This document shows, piece by piece, positions 17,104-26,934 of a stretch of 58,405 nucleotides of DNA (position 1 is the stretch's first letter; each line of letters opens with the position of its first letter). The notes under the pieces are model-generated. The model had not been told where the DNA came from, ran no database searches, and saw only the letters and a list, made by a program, of their open reading frames with translations. The position numbers and the translations under genes are program-made. Source of the stretch: Erysipelothrix aquatica (GTDB lineage Bacteria; Bacillota_I; Bacilli_A; Erysipelotrichales; Erysipelotrichaceae); NCBI RefSeq assembly GCF_009828775.2, contig NZ_WTSY02000012.1, positions 1-58,405 on the forward strand, in the 5' to 3' direction.

Positions 17104-17997
17104 ATGCACCAAAATGAACAATTGATGGATATCGTTAAAGATATTGCGGCACAAAGCCCGTACATCTATGTTGTAGCAATGAATGGCTCTCGCGTGAATA
17201 CGAATGTAGGCGCTGATGCTTGGCAGGATTATGATGTGGTTTATATTGTTGAAGATGTTTCAATCTTTGTGAAAGATCGCAGTTGGTTGGATTTTTTTCC
17301 GAAGCGCTTAATTATGCAAGTACCAACGGACATGGGAAGTGATCAGCCATGGCCTACTTTTTTGATGCAGTTTGAAAATGGTGATCGTGTTGATTTAATG
17401 TTCGTCCCAGTCACAGATTTAGCGACGTATTTGCAATCAGATTCGCTTGTGAAAATAATCATGGATAAAGAAGGCATGATGGAGGGATATGACCTACAGG
17501 AACCCGATGATTCTAAATACTGGATTCAAAAAGCAACACATTCAGATTATCAAGACAGTGTTAATGAATTCTTATGGCTATCGCTTTATGTAACCAAAGG
17601 GTTGAAGCGGAAGGAGCTTTTGTACGCCATTGATCACTTATCAATCATGCGCGACGAGTTATTGAAGATGATGACATGGATGGTAGGTAACAAAACAAAT
17701 CATAAAATCAGTCTTGGTAAGAATCATCGTTTGTTGAAAGTATTCATCGAAGAGGATATGTGGGCACGATTTATGACGACCTATAATTTATCAGACGCAG
17801 CATTGATTTGGGAGGCGTTAGAGACACTATTGTCACTTTATGAAATCGTTGCTGATCGCGTAGCGGATAACCAACATTTTACGTATGATCGTGGCCAATA
17901 TCACGCGATTCGAAATACAATTCTTGCGTTGCGCAAGGACGCAAATCTCTACTCAATCCATGATATAATAAGAGATACAAGTTTGGAGGTATTATGA
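17104..17997 (+). CDS. Aminoglycoside 6-adenylyltransferase-like protein (ANT(6)/AadE family)
   Basis: 297 residues aligning by eye along the whole length of streptomycin adenylyltransferases. The nucleotidyltransferase motif is GSR (28-30) with D42 and D44 in QDYDVVY; further conserved blocks are VDLMFVP and the VTKGLKRKELLYAIDH helix near 165. Family members attach AMP to streptomycin. Chromosomal homologues may have other substrates, so resistance is only a possibility. It has its own promoter, and its stop overlaps the uvrA start by 4 bp, which makes uvrA expression depend on this transcript. Confidence 0.87.
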   Translation: MHQNEQLMDIVKDIAAQSPYIYVVAMNGSRVNTNVGADAWQDYDVVYIVEDVSIFVKDRSWLDFFPKRLIMQVPTDMGSDQPWPTFLMQFENGDRVDLMFVPVTDLATYLQSDSLVKIIMDKEGMMEGYDLQEPDDSKYWIQKATHSDYQDSVNEFLWLSLYVTKGLKRKELLYAIDHLSIMRDELLKMMTWMVGNKTNHKISLGKNHRLLKVFIEEDMWARFMTTYNLSDAALIWEALETLLSLYEIVADRVADNQHFTYDRGQYHAIRNTILALRKDANLYSIHDIIRDTSLEVL

Positions 17998-20821: not shown

Positions 20822-21769
20822 ATGGAAGAAAGAAAAACAACAACAGTACGTGTACTTGTTGAACATTTAAAGCTTACACAATTAACCGGAGATGATGCAT
20901 CATTAAATCGTTTGGTCACAGTACCCAATACGAATCGTCCTGGACTTGAATTATCCGGATTCTTCGATTATGCAGAGAATAAACGGATCGTAATCATCGG
21001 TAAAAAGGAAACAGCATTTATTAAAGGTTTACCAGAATCTGAACAATTCAAACCATGGGATTTTCTGACATCGGAAGAAACACCGCTTATCTTAATTACA
21101 AGTAGTAATCCTTTGCCGAAAGTCCTAGCTGAAATTGCGACTGAGAAAAATTTCCCAGTATTCCGAACCGAACGCGCAAGTTCAGATGTCATGGTTGATA
21201 TGGTGACATTCTTAGATGAGGAACTCGCTCCAACAACAAATGTTCATGGAGGACTCATGAATGTCTACGGTCGTGGCGTACTTATTATTGGTGGCAGTGG
21301 AATGGGGAAATCGGAGCTAGCTCTTGAACTCATCAATCGTGGTCACTCATTGGTTGCTGATGATCGTGTTGATATTAGTCGTGTCAAAGATATGATTATT
21401 GGCTCAGCACCTGAACTTTTACGCGGAATGTTAGAGATTCGAGGAATCGGAATCATTGATATTACAAAAATGTTTGGGACTCATGCTTACCTCGAAGCGA
21501 AAGAAGTTGATTTCGTCGTCGAACTTGAAAAGTGGGACGATTCAAAAGAGTACAGACGCGTTGGAATAGAACAAGATGCTCATTATGATGCCTTTGGGTT
21601 ACAAATTCCACACCTAGTATTTCCAGTCCGAGAAGGTCGAAACATGGCCGTATTGGTAGAATCAGCAGTGCGTGATTTCATTCTGAAACAACGAGGCGTT
21701 GACACTGCTGCGGAATTTGATGCCCGCGTCATGAACTTTATTCAAAAACAAAATGAGGAGCATAAATAA
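20822..21769 (+). CDS. hprK: HPr kinase/phosphorylase
   Basis: 315 residues, bifunctional. It phosphorylates HPr on Ser46 using ATP or PPi and removes the phosphate by phosphorolysis, releasing PPi. The P-loop is GGSGMGKSE near 155, and the HPrK signature ELEKWDDSKEYRRVG lies near 235. HPr-Ser-P is the co-repressor for CcpA, tying this gene to carbon control of the maltodextrin region. It starts 2 bp after uvrA and overlaps lgt by 1 bp (TAATG). Confidence 0.96.
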   Translation: MEERKTTTVRVLVEHLKLTQLTGDDASLNRLVTVPNTNRPGLELSGFFDYAENKRIVIIGKKETAFIKGLPESEQFKPWDFLTSEETPLILITSSNPLPKVLAEIATEKNFPVFRTERASSDVMVDMVTFLDEELAPTTNVHGGLMNVYGRGVLIIGGSGMGKSELALELINRGHSLVADDRVDISRVKDMIIGSAPELLRGMLEIRGIGIIDITKMFGTHAYLEAKEVDFVVELEKWDDSKEYRRVGIEQDAHYDAFGLQIPHLVFPVREGRNMAVLVESAVRDFILKQRGVDTAAEFDARVMNFIQKQNEEHK

Positions 21770-23226
21770 TGATTGAATTTTTTCCAAACACTAAAATATT
21801 TTTAGAAATAGGACCTGTATCGATTACGTGGTATGCAGTACTTATCATGACAGGAGCAATTATTGCTTTCGTTATCAGTAAACGTAATTTACTAAAAGTG
21901 GGTTATAAAGCGGACGATATCGATGACATCTTTATTGGAACACTATTAAGTGGATTTGCTGGAGCACGTATCTGGTATATCTTATTCTTTGACTTTAAAC
22001 AATACCTCAAAGATCCAATGATGATTTTTAAAATTTGGGAAGGAGGACTCGCAATTCAAGGAGGCCTCATTGCCGGCGCAATTTTCTGCTATTTCTACAT
22101 GAAGCGTAAGCGCATCAATTTTGTTCAAGCGGCTGATCTAATTTTACCTAATGTTCTGATTGCACAAGCAATTGGTCGTTGGGGAAACTTCATGAACCAA
22201 GAGGCATTTGGCGGTATCGTTCCAGAATCCTTCTTTAATGGATTTCCAACATTTATCAAAGACATGATGTTTATCAATGGGAATTACCACCATCCCACTT
22301 TCCTCTATGAAAGTGTTGCTAATATCGTTGGTTGGATTCTCATCGTGCTCGTTTTGAAACGCTTCAGTCGTATCAAACGTGGTGATCTAACATTTGCATA
22401 TCTTATGTGGTATGGTGCTACACGATTCTTTATTGAGGGGCTTCGAACAGACAGTCTATATTTCTTCAATATTCGTATCGCACAATTAATATCTGTTATA
22501 TTCTTGCTTGTTGGCTTGTTTGGATATCTTGGTGGATTCCAAAAAATTATTGGGAAACCAAAGCCAATTATCCTTTGGGATTTCGATGGAACACTTGGAA
22601 ACACACAAGAACTTATTATTAAAACATTTAAAAAAGTATTTGAAATCCATAAACCAGACTATAACTTAAGTGATGAAGAAGTTCGTTCATTCTTAGGTCC
22701 TACGTTAGAAGATACGTTTATGAAGCATTTTGATGCTAATCGCGTGGATGCCATTATTGATGAATATCGTGAAATAAATATTGCAATGCATGCGGATTAC
22801 GTCACCGAAATGGAACACGCAACAGAAGTTTTAACTGCTTTAAAAAATGATGGCTACCGTATGGGAATTGTCTCGAATAAACAAACGGCATCCCTTATGG
22901 TTGGCGTTGAACTTCTCGAAATGCAAGATTTCTTCGAAGTTGTATTGGGAAGCGATCTCTTCAATCCTGAAAAACCTGACCCTGCGGGAATCGATCTTGC
23001 CCTAGAACAGATGAATGTCGATAAAGGTGGTGTTATCTATATTGGAGATACCCCAAGTGATATCATCGCTGGACAGCGGGCAGGTTCATTTACAATTGGT
23101 TACGTATTTGATAAAATGCGTGAGAAAGAACTTCGTGAGACCAATCCAAATCGTGTGATTGATGACTTACGCGAAGTTCAAGAAATTTTGAAGGAGGATC
23201 ATGAATGGACAATAACTATGATGTAA
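21769..23226 (+). CDS. lgt: Lgt prolipoprotein diacylglyceryl transferase fused to a PpaX-like HAD phosphatase
   Basis: 485 residues in one frame. Residues 1-255 are a seven-helix Lgt with the signature GRWGNFMNQEAFG (136-148) and TRFFIEGLRTD near 218; Lgt moves diacylglycerol from phosphatidylglycerol to the lipobox cysteine. Residues 266-475 are a soluble HAD enzyme: DFDGT with nucleophile D271, then SNKQT, NPEKPDP and IGDTPSD. In Bacillus, hprK, lgt and ppaX are separate neighbours and PpaX hydrolyses the PPi made by HprK, so the fused half is most likely PpaX; phosphoglycolate phosphatase is the alternative. No stop or internal start with a good ribosome site separates the halves. The 3' end overlaps trxB by 22 bp. 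Confidence 0.93.
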   Translation: MIEFFPNTKIFLEIGPVSITWYAVLIMTGAIIAFVISKRNLLKVGYKADDIDDIFIGTLLSGFAGARIWYILFFDFKQYLKDPMMIFKIWEGGLAIQGGLIAGAIFCYFYMKRKRINFVQAADLILPNVLIAQAIGRWGNFMNQEAFGGIVPESFFNGFPTFIKDMMFINGNYHHPTFLYESVANIVGWILIVLVLKRFSRIKRGDLTFAYLMWYGATRFFIEGLRTDSLYFFNIRIAQLISVIFLLVGLFGYLGGFQKIIGKPKPIILWDFDGTLGNTQELIIKTFKKVFEIHKPDYNLSDEEVRSFLGPTLEDTFMKHFDANRVDAIIDEYREINIAMHADYVTEMEHATEVLTALKNDGYRMGIVSNKQTASLMVGVELLEMQDFFEVVLGSDLFNPEKPDPAGIDLALEQMNVDKGGVIYIGDTPSDIIAGQRAGSFTIGYVFDKMREKELRETNPNRVIDDLREVQEILKEDHEWTITMM

Positions 23227-24143
23227 TTATCATTGGAGCAGGACCTGCGGGATTAACTGCGGCAGTCTACGCTGGGCGTGCTGGTTTGAAAACAGCAATG
23301 TTAGAATATGAAGCACCTGGTGGAAAAATGATCAAAACAGATATCGTATGTAATTATCCTGGAGTCGATAATGTTTCAGGTGTAGACTTATCCATGAAAA
23401 TGTTTGAACATTCCACAGCTTACGGAGCTGAATACATTTATGGTGAAGTATCAGAAATCATCGATGAAGGGGAATGGAAAATCGTAAAAGCGAGTGGCAC
23501 TGAGTATAAGACACATGCTGTAATTATTGCTACCGGAACCAATGAACGCACATTAGGTTTTGCTGATGATGAACGTCTCTTAGGAAAAGGGTTATCATAC
23601 TGTGCAGTTTGTGATGGCGCATTCTTTAAAAACAAAGATGTCGTTGTTATCGGTGGCGGTAACTCCGCGCTTGAGGAATCGGTATACTTAACACAATTTG
23701 CAAATAAAGTTGACCTTGTAATCCGTCGTGACGTATTCCGTGGTGACGAAGCAAATCAACGTCAAGTACTTAATAATCCAAAAATTAATGTAATCCGTAA
23801 ACACGTTCCTGTAGACTATATTGTTACAGATGAAGGAAAAGTTGGCGGTATCAAATTCAAAGATGTTGAAACCGGTGAAGAATTAGATGTTGCATCGGAA
23901 GGAGTCTTTCCATATATTGGTGCGATTCCAGCAACGGGATTCCTAGAAAATCATGAAGGTATGGTTGATGAAGAAGGGTATTTAATTGTAAATGAACAAT
24001 TGGAGACTGTCATTCCTGGAATCTTTGGTGCAGGTGATGTTATTCAAAAACATCTACGTCAAATCGTCACTGCAACAAGTGATGGTGCGATTACAGCACA
24101 AAACGCATTCCACCATATACAAAATCTAAAATCTAAGGTATAA
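23205..24143 (+). CDS. trxB: Thioredoxin reductase
   Basis: 312 residues, a low-molecular-weight NADPH- and FAD-dependent thioredoxin reductase. FAD binding is at GAGPAGLTAA near the N-terminus, the redox-active pair is CAVC, NADPH binding is at GGGNSALEE, and the second FAD motif is GIFGAGDV near 275. GAAGGAGG lies at the correct distance upstream, inside the previous gene. It closes the hprK-lgt operon, as shown by the terminator that overlaps its stop codon. Confidence 0.95.
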   Translation: MDNNYDVIIIGAGPAGLTAAVYAGRAGLKTAMLEYEAPGGKMIKTDIVCNYPGVDNVSGVDLSMKMFEHSTAYGAEYIYGEVSEIIDEGEWKIVKASGTEYKTHAVIIATGTNERTLGFADDERLLGKGLSYCAVCDGAFFKNKDVVVIGGGNSALEESVYLTQFANKVDLVIRRDVFRGDEANQRQVLNNPKINVIRKHVPVDYIVTDEGKVGGIKFKDVETGEELDVASEGVFPYIGAIPATGFLENHEGMVDEEGYLIVNEQLETVIPGIFGAGDVIQKHLRQIVTATSDGAITAQNAFHHIQNLKSKV

Positions 24144-24182: not shown

Positions 24183-25055
24183 ATGAATCATCTAAATAAA
24201 CCAAAAATTGTATTAGTAACCGGACTTTCAGGTGCAGGAAAAACCAGTGCAATGGCTGTCTTAGAAGATATGGGCTATCATTGTATAGACCGCTTCCCTG
24301 CTGCTTTGATTGATAATCTTATTGATGAAATTATTGCAAAGAAAACGCCTGGATATGAAAATGTTGCATTATCAGTAACTGCAAAAGATTTCTTTAAATT
24401 CTATAAACGTTTAAAAGGTATTGATGCCGAACTAACGGTGCTCTTCCTGGATGCCTCAAAAGAGCAGCTGCTTTTACGATACAAATACAACCGTCGTAAC
24501 CATCCGCTTGTGGTGGCAGGTCTTGCAAATAGCCTTGAAGAAGGACTTGATGCGGAGATAACAGAGTTTTCCGAAATTAAATCATTCGCAAGTATTATCA
24601 TAGATACGACATTCTTAACAGCGCAAAATTTAACACAAAGAATTCAACGCTTCTTTAGTGTTGAAGGTAAACAAACGCTAAATATTAGTTTCATTTCATT
24701 TGGGTATCGTAAAGGTTTACCACGAGATGCAGACCTTGTTTTCGATGTACGTTTCTTAAACAATCCATATTGGGAAGAATCGCTTCGTGAAAAAACTGGA
24801 AACGATGTCGCAGTTTACAACTACGTATTGGATGATCCCAAAACTCAAGAGTACTTAGAATATTTGAAACCATTTTTGGACTATTCCTTTGATAAATACG
24901 TGGAAGAATCCAAACATTTATTAACTGTTGCGATTGGCTGTACAGGGGGGCAACACCGTTCTGTGTCAATTGTTAATTGGCTCTATGATCAATACCGTAA
25001 AGACTACACATCCTTCAAAAACCATCGTGATGTGAAGGACGAAAAAACCGTATGA
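24183..25055 (+). CDS. rapZ: RapZ/YvcJ-family nucleotide-binding protein
   Basis: 290 residues. The N-terminal P-loop is GLSGAGKTS near 13. The C-terminal domain contains SFGYRKGLPRDADLVFDVRFL near 165 and the conserved IGCTGGQHRSV near 255. E. coli RapZ is an RNase E adaptor controlling GlmZ RNA; Bacillus YvcJ binds and hydrolyses GTP and affects competence. It overlaps yvcK by 4 bp. The conserved trio rapZ-yvcK-whiA supports the assignment. Confidence 0.95.
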   Translation: MNHLNKPKIVLVTGLSGAGKTSAMAVLEDMGYHCIDRFPAALIDNLIDEIIAKKTPGYENVALSVTAKDFFKFYKRLKGIDAELTVLFLDASKEQLLLRYKYNRRNHPLVVAGLANSLEEGLDAEITEFSEIKSFASIIIDTTFLTAQNLTQRIQRFFSVEGKQTLNISFISFGYRKGLPRDADLVFDVRFLNNPYWEESLREKTGNDVAVYNYVLDDPKTQEYLEYLKPFLDYSFDKYVEESKHLLTVAIGCTGGQHRSVSIVNWLYDQYRKDYTSFKNHRDVKDEKTV

Positions 25056-26011
25056 ATGTTGTAGTTGTCGGTGGTGGAAAAGGGCAATCTGCACTACTTC
25101 GCGGACTTAAGAACGTTGAAGGAATTAATTTGAAAGCAATCGTAACTGTCGCTGATGATGGTGGAAGTACAGGGCGTTTGCGCGAAGAATTTAATTTACC
25201 CGCAATGGGTGATATTCGAAACGTTATGCTTTCGCTTGCCGAGTCAGAAACGTTACTCTCAGTTATTATGAACTATCGCTTCGATGAAGGAACACGATCG
25301 TCATTGGCTGGGCATAATTTAGGCAACTTAATTTTCACTGCGCTTGCAACTGCGTCTGGAAACTTTATGGAAGTCATCACGCAGCTGTCACAAGTTCTCA
25401 ATGTTAAAGGAGAAGTTATCCCGGCATCGATGGATTTTATTACCCTATGTGCTCGTATGGAAGATGGTACCATTGTACGTGGAGAATCCAATATCCCTAA
25501 GTATAGCAACACCATTGATCACGTCTACTACGATGTGGATGTGAAAGCAACAGAGAATGCTGTTGCAGCAATTATGGAAGCGGATGTAATAGTAATGGGT
25601 GTGGGGTCTGTATATACATCGATTCTACCAAATCTCATCATTCCCGAAATTAAAGAAGCCATTCGTAAAACGAAAGCAAAAAAAGTCTATTACTGTAACG
25701 CAATGAGCCAGCCTGGAGAAACTGATGGCTATACTGCAGAAGATCATGTTAATGCGATTCTCAAGCACATTGATGCATCACTTGATCTAGTCGTAGCAGC
25801 TTCAGATCCAATTTCAAAAGAAGTCTTGGAACATTACGAAGAAGAAAATAGTTACCCGGTTCTCTTTAGAACACAAAATCATACCTATCCTGTTCTACAA
25901 CAAGATTTATTACATTTTGACAACAATCGTATCCGTCATGATCATGATAAAGTAGAAAAAGGATTCAAAGAAGTTTTGGAGGCATTAGGATGTCCTTTAG
26001 CAGTGAAGTAA
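25052..26011 (+). CDS. YvcK/CofD-like protein (gluconeogenesis factor)
   Basis: 319 residues of the YvcK family, which shares the CofD fold and binds UDP-sugars. In Bacillus, YvcK is needed for growth on gluconeogenic carbon sources and for cell shape. The N-terminal GGGKGQSALLRGL, then VADDGGSTGRLR and GDIRNVM, are the family hallmarks; VGSVYTSILPN and NAMSQPGETDGY are further signatures. It overlaps rapZ by 4 bp and whiA by 22 bp, so translation is coupled. Confidence 0.94.
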   Translation: MNVVVVGGGKGQSALLRGLKNVEGINLKAIVTVADDGGSTGRLREEFNLPAMGDIRNVMLSLAESETLLSVIMNYRFDEGTRSSLAGHNLGNLIFTALATASGNFMEVITQLSQVLNVKGEVIPASMDFITLCARMEDGTIVRGESNIPKYSNTIDHVYYDVDVKATENAVAAIMEADVIVMGVGSVYTSILPNLIIPEIKEAIRKTKAKKVYYCNAMSQPGETDGYTAEDHVNAILKHIDASLDLVVAASDPISKEVLEHYEEENSYPVLFRTQNHTYPVLQQDLLHFDNNRIRHDHDKVEKGFKEVLEALGCPLAVK

Positions 26012-26934
26012 AACATGAAATAACTACCGTTCCGTTCAAGCCATGTTGCGAACGTGCTTTATTGTCTGCATTTTTACATATAAACTCAAATTTACTGATT
26101 GTTAATAAGCAGATGCAATTACAAATTGAAACAGAAAATGCAGCGATTGCAAAACGAATGTATCAAATAATTAAGAATCGATACGAAGTTCAAATCGAAT
26201 TAACAGTGGTACGAAAACAACGACTCAACAAGAGCAACGTTTACGTCTTGCGAGTTTTAGAAAAGGGCATTGAAATTTTAGAAGATGTGGGAATCTATTC
26301 ATCCAAAGGGATGCGAGAAACACCTTCTAAGATCATAACGCTCAAAGAGTGTTGTGCAAAAGCTTATCTAGCAGGAGCCTTCTTAGCGAGTGGTAGCATT
26401 AATGCTCCCACAACCGCTAACTATCATCTAGAAGTCTCTACGGCTGAAGAAGCGTTATCTCGCTATATAATGCGTTTAATGAAAATGTTTGATATAGGTG
26501 CGAAGGTTACCGAACGTCGCGGACGCTACATTGTTTATGTCAAAGCGGCAGACCAAATCGCTGACTTCTTAAAAATAACAGGAGCACATTCAAAAACACT
26601 TGAATTTGAAGATGTTCGTATTCAACGAGATTTTAGAAATTCTCTAACTCGTCTTGATAATTGCGAAGTTGCGAATGAAGTAAAAACAATAAAAGCCGGG
26701 AATGCACAAATTGATGCAATCCAAAAATTAATCGAACATAATCGATACAGTCATATTGAAGAACGCCTCATTCAGGTTGGGGATTTACGTATGGAAAACC
26801 CTGAGACTAGCCTCAATGAGCTTATCGAGCTCTATCAAGAAAAGTATAATGAACCCATTAGTAAATCAGGACTACAACATCGCTTTAAAAAGCTGATCGA
26901 GTTAGCTGGAAAAATAGAAGAATCAGAACAATAG
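25990..26934 (+). CDS. whiA: WhiA DNA-binding protein
   Basis: 314 residues. The N-terminal part (about 1-215) is a degenerate LAGLIDADG homing-endonuclease-like fold and the C-terminal part (about 225-305) a helix-turn-helix. In Streptomyces it is a sporulation regulator; in Bacillus it affects division and chromosome segregation. Conserved features are the SSEVKHEI start, AYLAGAFLASGSI near 118, and the C-terminal ISKSGLQHRFKKL. GGAGG lies at 25978-25982. In Bacillus, crh follows this gene; here there is a terminator instead. Confidence 0.95.
   Translation: MSFSSEVKHEITTVPFKPCCERALLSAFLHINSNLLIVNKQMQLQIETENAAIAKRMYQIIKNRYEVQIELTVVRKQRLNKSNVYVLRVLEKGIEILEDVGIYSSKGMRETPSKIITLKECCAKAYLAGAFLASGSINAPTTANYHLEVSTAEEALSRYIMRLMKMFDIGAKVTERRGRYIVYVKAADQIADFLKITGAHSKTLEFEDVRIQRDFRNSLTRLDNCEVANEVKTIKAGNAQIDAIQKLIEHNRYSHIEERLIQVGDLRMENPETSLNELIELYQEKYNEPISKSGLQHRFKKLIELAGKIEESEQ

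Follow-up and report, generated by a model that had tools for sequence, protein, structure and literature searches.

We analysed a window of 58,405 nucleotides (the whole stretch of Erysipelothrix aquatica DNA under study) in which the gene directly following hprK encodes a fusion of two enzymes made from separate genes in relatives, an N-terminal Lgt and a C-terminal HAD phosphatase (Table 1). It is a single frame that opens with ATG and runs for 485 codons without interruption. A sequence-only reading had proposed a complete Lgt and a complete HAD hydrolase in one frame, within a gene order of the hprK-lgt-ppaX type, and both proposals are borne out: the Pfam LGT and HAD_2 models each match their half, both active sites are intact, and the hprK stop codon overlaps the start codon of the fusion gene by one base (TAATG, 21767-21771). 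The cluster is preceded by uvrA. Directly upstream of uvrA, at 17104-17997, lies a gene of the streptomycin/aminoglycoside adenylyltransferase family (PF04439, 275 bits). A separate HAD protein made from an internal start was considered and rejected, as at the junction in the window the 25 codons ahead of the HAD motif contain no in-frame start that has a ribosome site, while in relatives no such start is conserved and a weak match is seen in 12 of 75.

Table 1. Features of the hprK-fusion cluster, with positions in the window.
Feature	Position	Strand	Basis or remark
hprK (HPr kinase/phosphorylase)	20822..21769	+	stop codon overlaps fusion start by 1 base
GAGGAG ribosome site of fusion gene	21755..21760	+	8 bases upstream of start codon
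Lgt-HAD fusion gene, 485 aa	21769..23226	+	frame and Pfam/NCBIfam matches
Lgt domain, residues 1-256	21769..22536	+	Pfam, alignment, AlphaFold
Lysine-rich junction, residues 257-266, TM7 to first HAD strand	22537..22566	+	AlphaFold, start-site scan
HAD IA (C1-cap) phosphatase domain, residues 267-475	22567..23193	+	Pfam, NCBIfam, motifs, AlphaFold
trxB-like thioredoxin reductase	23205..24143	+	overlaps fusion end by 22 bases
rapZ, yvcK-like (CofD), whiA, extending cluster	24183..26934	+	downstream of trxB

Identity of the two halves

The N-terminal half is recognised by both the Pfam LGT model (residues 10-252, 227 bits against a cut-off of 24.9) and the NCBIfam lgt equivalog TIGR00544 (209 against 118.9). 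Throughout the genome PF01790 (LGT) matches the fusion gene alone, which is thus the only Lgt by this model. The GRWGNFMNQEAFG motif pointed out from the sequence is found at residues 136-148, and R137, N140, E145, G148, R219 and E223, the equivalents of R143, N146, E151, G154, R239 and E243 in Escherichia coli Lgt, are kept and are invariant in alignment A1. We take N146, E151, G154 and E243 to be essential or important in the E. coli enzyme. R143 and R239 have been shown to be essential there (PMC4728403). The fold is the same as that of E. coli Lgt (PDB 5azb), from which the window protein differs in its added C-terminal HAD and in having Q97 (22057-22059) where the HGGL motif has H103. In E. 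coli Lgt, H103Q abolishes complementation. However, Q97 does not exclude Lgt membership, because Q is the natural state in most Lgts of family f2 and half of those sampled from f1 (f numbers denote families, f1 being that of the window, and g numbers genera); it is also found in f19 and f21, while f8 has L, V or M.

The C-terminal half matches Pfam HAD_2 over residues 268-444 (161 bits, cut-off 23.8) and carries a C1 cap together with the DxDxT, S/T, K and DxxxD motifs of HAD IA proteins: D271xD273xT275, as had been noticed, followed by S369, K402, D427 and D431. The best HAD model for the fused domain is the PpaX model NF009804, at 172 bits against a cut-off of 218, and unfused orthologs in relatives exceed that cut-off, with 232, 234, 258 and 277 bits. 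In addition, the fused HAD occupies the PpaX position after hprK-lgt and is the ortholog of the gene found behind hprK-lgt in relatives; the trees were built without Bacillus PpaX, to which orthology rests on the curated model and gene order. Together these results support the earlier description of the domain as PpaX-like, with pyrophosphate (PPi) as the leading candidate for its substrate.

An AlphaFold model of the fusion (pLDDT 90.5, pTM 0.83), whose top PDB matches are 5azb and C1-cap HADs, has transmembrane helices at 21-43, 48-74, 96-114, 118-142, 177-199, 206-225 and 237-253. With TM7 ending at 253 and the HAD beginning at 267, the linker is about 10 residues long. Because the known topology of Lgt puts its C terminus on the cytosolic side, the HAD half should lie in the cytosol, with which the lysine-rich junction agrees. 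Other HAD phosphatases joined to a second enzyme are known, such as the bifunctional MtlD (PDB 7ocn). However, MtlD is soluble and catalyses sequential reactions, whereas the enzyme joined to the HAD here is an integral membrane transferase and shares no obvious metabolite with it.

Distribution, origin and decay of the fusion

Our sample comprised 138 genomes of the order, including 95 from Erysipelotrichaceae (f1). Many of the genomes analysed appear fragmentary. A search for Lgt-HAD architectures revealed the fusion in nearly the whole family of Erysipelothrix: an intact protein of 477-519 aa is encoded right after hprK in about 71 of 95 family genomes (a tally from the table), beyond which one fusion runs off its contig and another carries a frameshift. 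This conservation and an ortholog in Erysipelothrix anatis, 99% identical over the protein, rule out an assembly frameshift, which the sequence-only reading had raised, or a chimera. In all, hprK precedes 75 fused loci. Among 74 aligned fusions (two rows being truncated or frameshifted), D271 and D273 are present in 74, T275, S/T369 and K402 in 73, and D427 and D431 in 72, and R137, N140, E145, G148 and E223 are retained in the 66 whose Lgt half has not decayed. When intact fusions are compared, the Lgt half is more conserved than the HAD half in 55 of 55 pairs. Three near-complete f1 genomes (G028, G076 and G136) have neither an Lgt nor an HprK match, through joint loss or an assembly gap, and G114 is left unclassed, its contig ending about 500 bases past hprK without showing a frame for either HAD or Lgt.

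Separate hprK, lgt and HAD genes in this order, often overlapping, are found at 23 loci across the class. In f2 the HAD gene stands apart from lgt; trxB comes next at each of the four loci examined, and then rapZ at the one locus checked. Since these are the downstream neighbours seen in the window, hprK, lgt, HAD, trxB, rapZ is the most likely ancestral order. An apparent fusion in f2 genus g35 (frames of 503-511 aa) proved to be two adjacent genes. The Bacillota hprK-lgt-ppaX cluster (PpaX/YvoE) has the same three genes in the same order, and its PpaX-type neighbour is orthologous to the HAD of the fusion. The differences are that a single gene here takes the place of lgt and ppaX, that the fused HAD scores below the PpaX cut-off, and that some fusions occur in genomes lacking HprK.

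Fused Lgt-HAD proteins also exist outside f1, in f11 (genus g114), f21, f6 and f8. The Lgt tree requires at least six changes between the fused and separate states, as does the HAD tree, which mirrors it. AU tests rejected a single clade of all fusions (lnL difference 406), a single clade of all non-f1 fusions, an f1+f6 clade and an f6+f11+f21 clade. Grouping f11 with f21 (p 0.47) or the two f6 fusions (p 0.29) was compatible with the data and each pair may be one event, so that a safe statement is that the fusion arose at least four times independently. No description of it was found in the open-access literature that we searched, which misses most subscription papers; what is new here is the occurrence of fusions in at least four lineages, their presence in genomes without HprK, and the retention of a decayed Lgt half with an intact HAD.

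This last situation is seen in eight genomes (seven of g45 and one of g61), where the gene after hprK still codes for both halves. E145 and G148 are lost from the Lgt half, mostly along with N140, E181, R219 and E223, while all HAD catalytic residues stay, and the HAD half is the more conserved in 28 of 28 pairs, the reverse of what intact fusions show. The decayed half keeps 5-7 strongly hydrophobic segments and its model is still Lgt-like (5azb, E 3e-8) but without the periplasmic head. In one close pair (L090/L091) its dN is 0.17 against a dS of 1.36, which suggests continued constraint. In another genome (G015, g4), a membrane domain of seven segments that the LGT model does not match at all forms the N-terminal half, and in seven others (five g45, one g4, one g5) a soluble, bare HAD comes right after hprK. 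All these loci nest inside the f1 fusion clade in the HAD tree and thus derive from the fusion. The opposite loss is found in genus g42 (L098, L099), in which Lgt is kept behind hprK and the HAD is a remnant of about 105 aa without the catalytic motif.

A further Lgt-like gene elsewhere in the genome accompanies 16 of 16 decayed, G015-type and bare-HAD cases, compared to 9 of 71 intact ones (tallies read from tables; Fisher 2e-11, no phylogenetic correction). The extra genes sampled are all of a GCCYG type and are the sole intact Lgt candidate where the fused Lgt half is dead. Nine loci (L114-L122, from G065, G107, G015, G135, G113, G114, G115, G014 and G063) encode this second, divergent Lgt-family protein, with for example GRIGCFLAGCCYG where the usual Lgt has GRWGNFMNQEAFG.

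Possible role of the fused protein

We favour, at a probability of roughly 0.62, a reading in which fused operon neighbours yield a PpaX-like phosphatase that is anchored in the membrane, faces the cytosol and has a wider role in PPi or small-phosphate metabolism. Two old neighbours between hprK and trxB, lgt and the ppaX-type HAD gene, would have merged into one membrane protein, probably because they already overlapped. The Lgt half is most likely still active in diacylglyceryl transfer, which takes place on the outer face of the membrane. The HAD half is attached at the cytosolic end of TM7, where its most likely activity is hydrolysis of a small phosphate ester or anhydride, PPi being the leading candidate. 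The main effect of the fusion would probably be the translation at a fixed ratio of genes that already overlapped, together with membrane tethering of the phosphatase, and it is tethering that seems to have been retained in the sub-lineage whose Lgt half has decayed. Several observations go against this reading. The link to HprK is not obligatory, as HprK-less genomes also retain the HAD, adjacent to Lgt or joined with it; in g42 the HAD half is wrecked although HprK is present; the fused HAD scores below the PpaX cut-off; and some relatives keep a soluble HAD without the Lgt half, which makes tethering dispensable.

The identity of the substrate is where most alternatives lie. A phosphoglycolate or broad sugar-phosphate phosphatase would have the same fold, and the top PDB matches of the domain are unassigned or Gph-like HADs; but this is unlikely, since the Gph models are not passed and give at most 91 bits (TIGR01449, 69 against 180; NF009695, 91 against 225) compared to 172 for PpaX, whose cut-off the orthologs exceed. 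Repeated fusion to Lgt itself, including in HprK-less genomes, could instead point to a phosphatase of sn-glycerol-1-phosphate, or another glycerophosphate, that recycles the Lgt by-product. We consider this very improbable because the active site of Lgt is in the periplasmic half (PMC4728403), so that the by-product is freed on the opposite side, and because the HAD stays by hprK even where the Lgt half is dead and the other Lgt-like gene lies elsewhere, unlinked. More can be said for a dedicated scavenger of the PPi formed when HprK dephosphorylates P-Ser-HPr, held at the membrane beside the PTS. The gene is directly behind hprK and stays there where Lgt has been lost, the genome encodes HprK and an HPr with His15 and Ser46, such a role was proposed for Bacillus yvoE/PpaX (Mijakovic 2002, as cited in PMC2937029), and a Brucella pyrophosphatase binds HprK/P and NPr (PMC2937029). 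PpaX-like HADs are also present in 32 of 36 genomes with HprK compared to 20 of 44 without (Fisher p 5e-5, no phylogenetic correction). However, three fusions (G374, G404 and G399) occur in genomes without HprK, as do about a dozen lgt-HAD neighbour pairs, so that clearing its PPi cannot be the only role of the HAD, and a soluble CBS-type family II pyrophosphatase in the E. aquatica genome (family I being absent) means that the HAD is not the sole candidate pyrophosphatase. A role confined to HprK is therefore doubtful, and the sequence-only reading, which had the HAD remove the PPi of HprK phosphorylase, does not hold as a sole explanation: PPi removal for HprK is plausible yet insufficient.

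The fusion might alternatively have no function of its own, overlapping neighbours having been joined by loss of a stop codon through a neutral link that leaves the halves independent. This is a possibility that we hold tentatively, somewhat ahead of the dedicated HprK scavenger. Overlaps of 1-50 nt exist between the separate genes in many relatives, the HAD remains beside its former neighbours regardless of the part that is lost (behind hprK without Lgt, ahead of trxB in f2), and either half can decay. Fixed gene dosage alone, which had been offered as an alternative to placing PPi removal at the membrane, may likewise be the effect of the fusion. A neutral link is harder to reconcile with at least four independent fusions, and with the retention in eight genomes of a catalytically stripped, frame-intact seven-helix Lgt half, for which the one close pair (L090/L091) still shows the low dN against dS given above. 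We rate as an even bet that in g45 and its relatives this half has become a dedicated seven-helix anchor for the PpaX-like phosphatase, lipoprotein maturation having been taken over by the GCCYG-type Lgt. If so, holding such a phosphatase at the membrane is worth keeping in itself.

Recurrent fusion, on which our preferred reading of a membrane-anchored phosphatase draws, is classically taken to indicate a functional link, here between lipoprotein maturation and a phosphatase whose gene order connects it with carbon catabolite control. Lineages in which one half is dead are natural experiments that set enzyme against anchor, and they lead to the prediction that the divergent GCCYG-type Lgt suffices to mature lipoproteins in genomes with a dead fused Lgt. 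Erysipelothrix includes animal pathogens, and the only Lgt of this genome is a two-domain protein.

One fusion is built differently from the others. In f8, the HprK-less genome G399 encodes a 732-aa Lgt-HAD protein (L131) with a long N-terminal part and extra membrane segments between Lgt and HAD.
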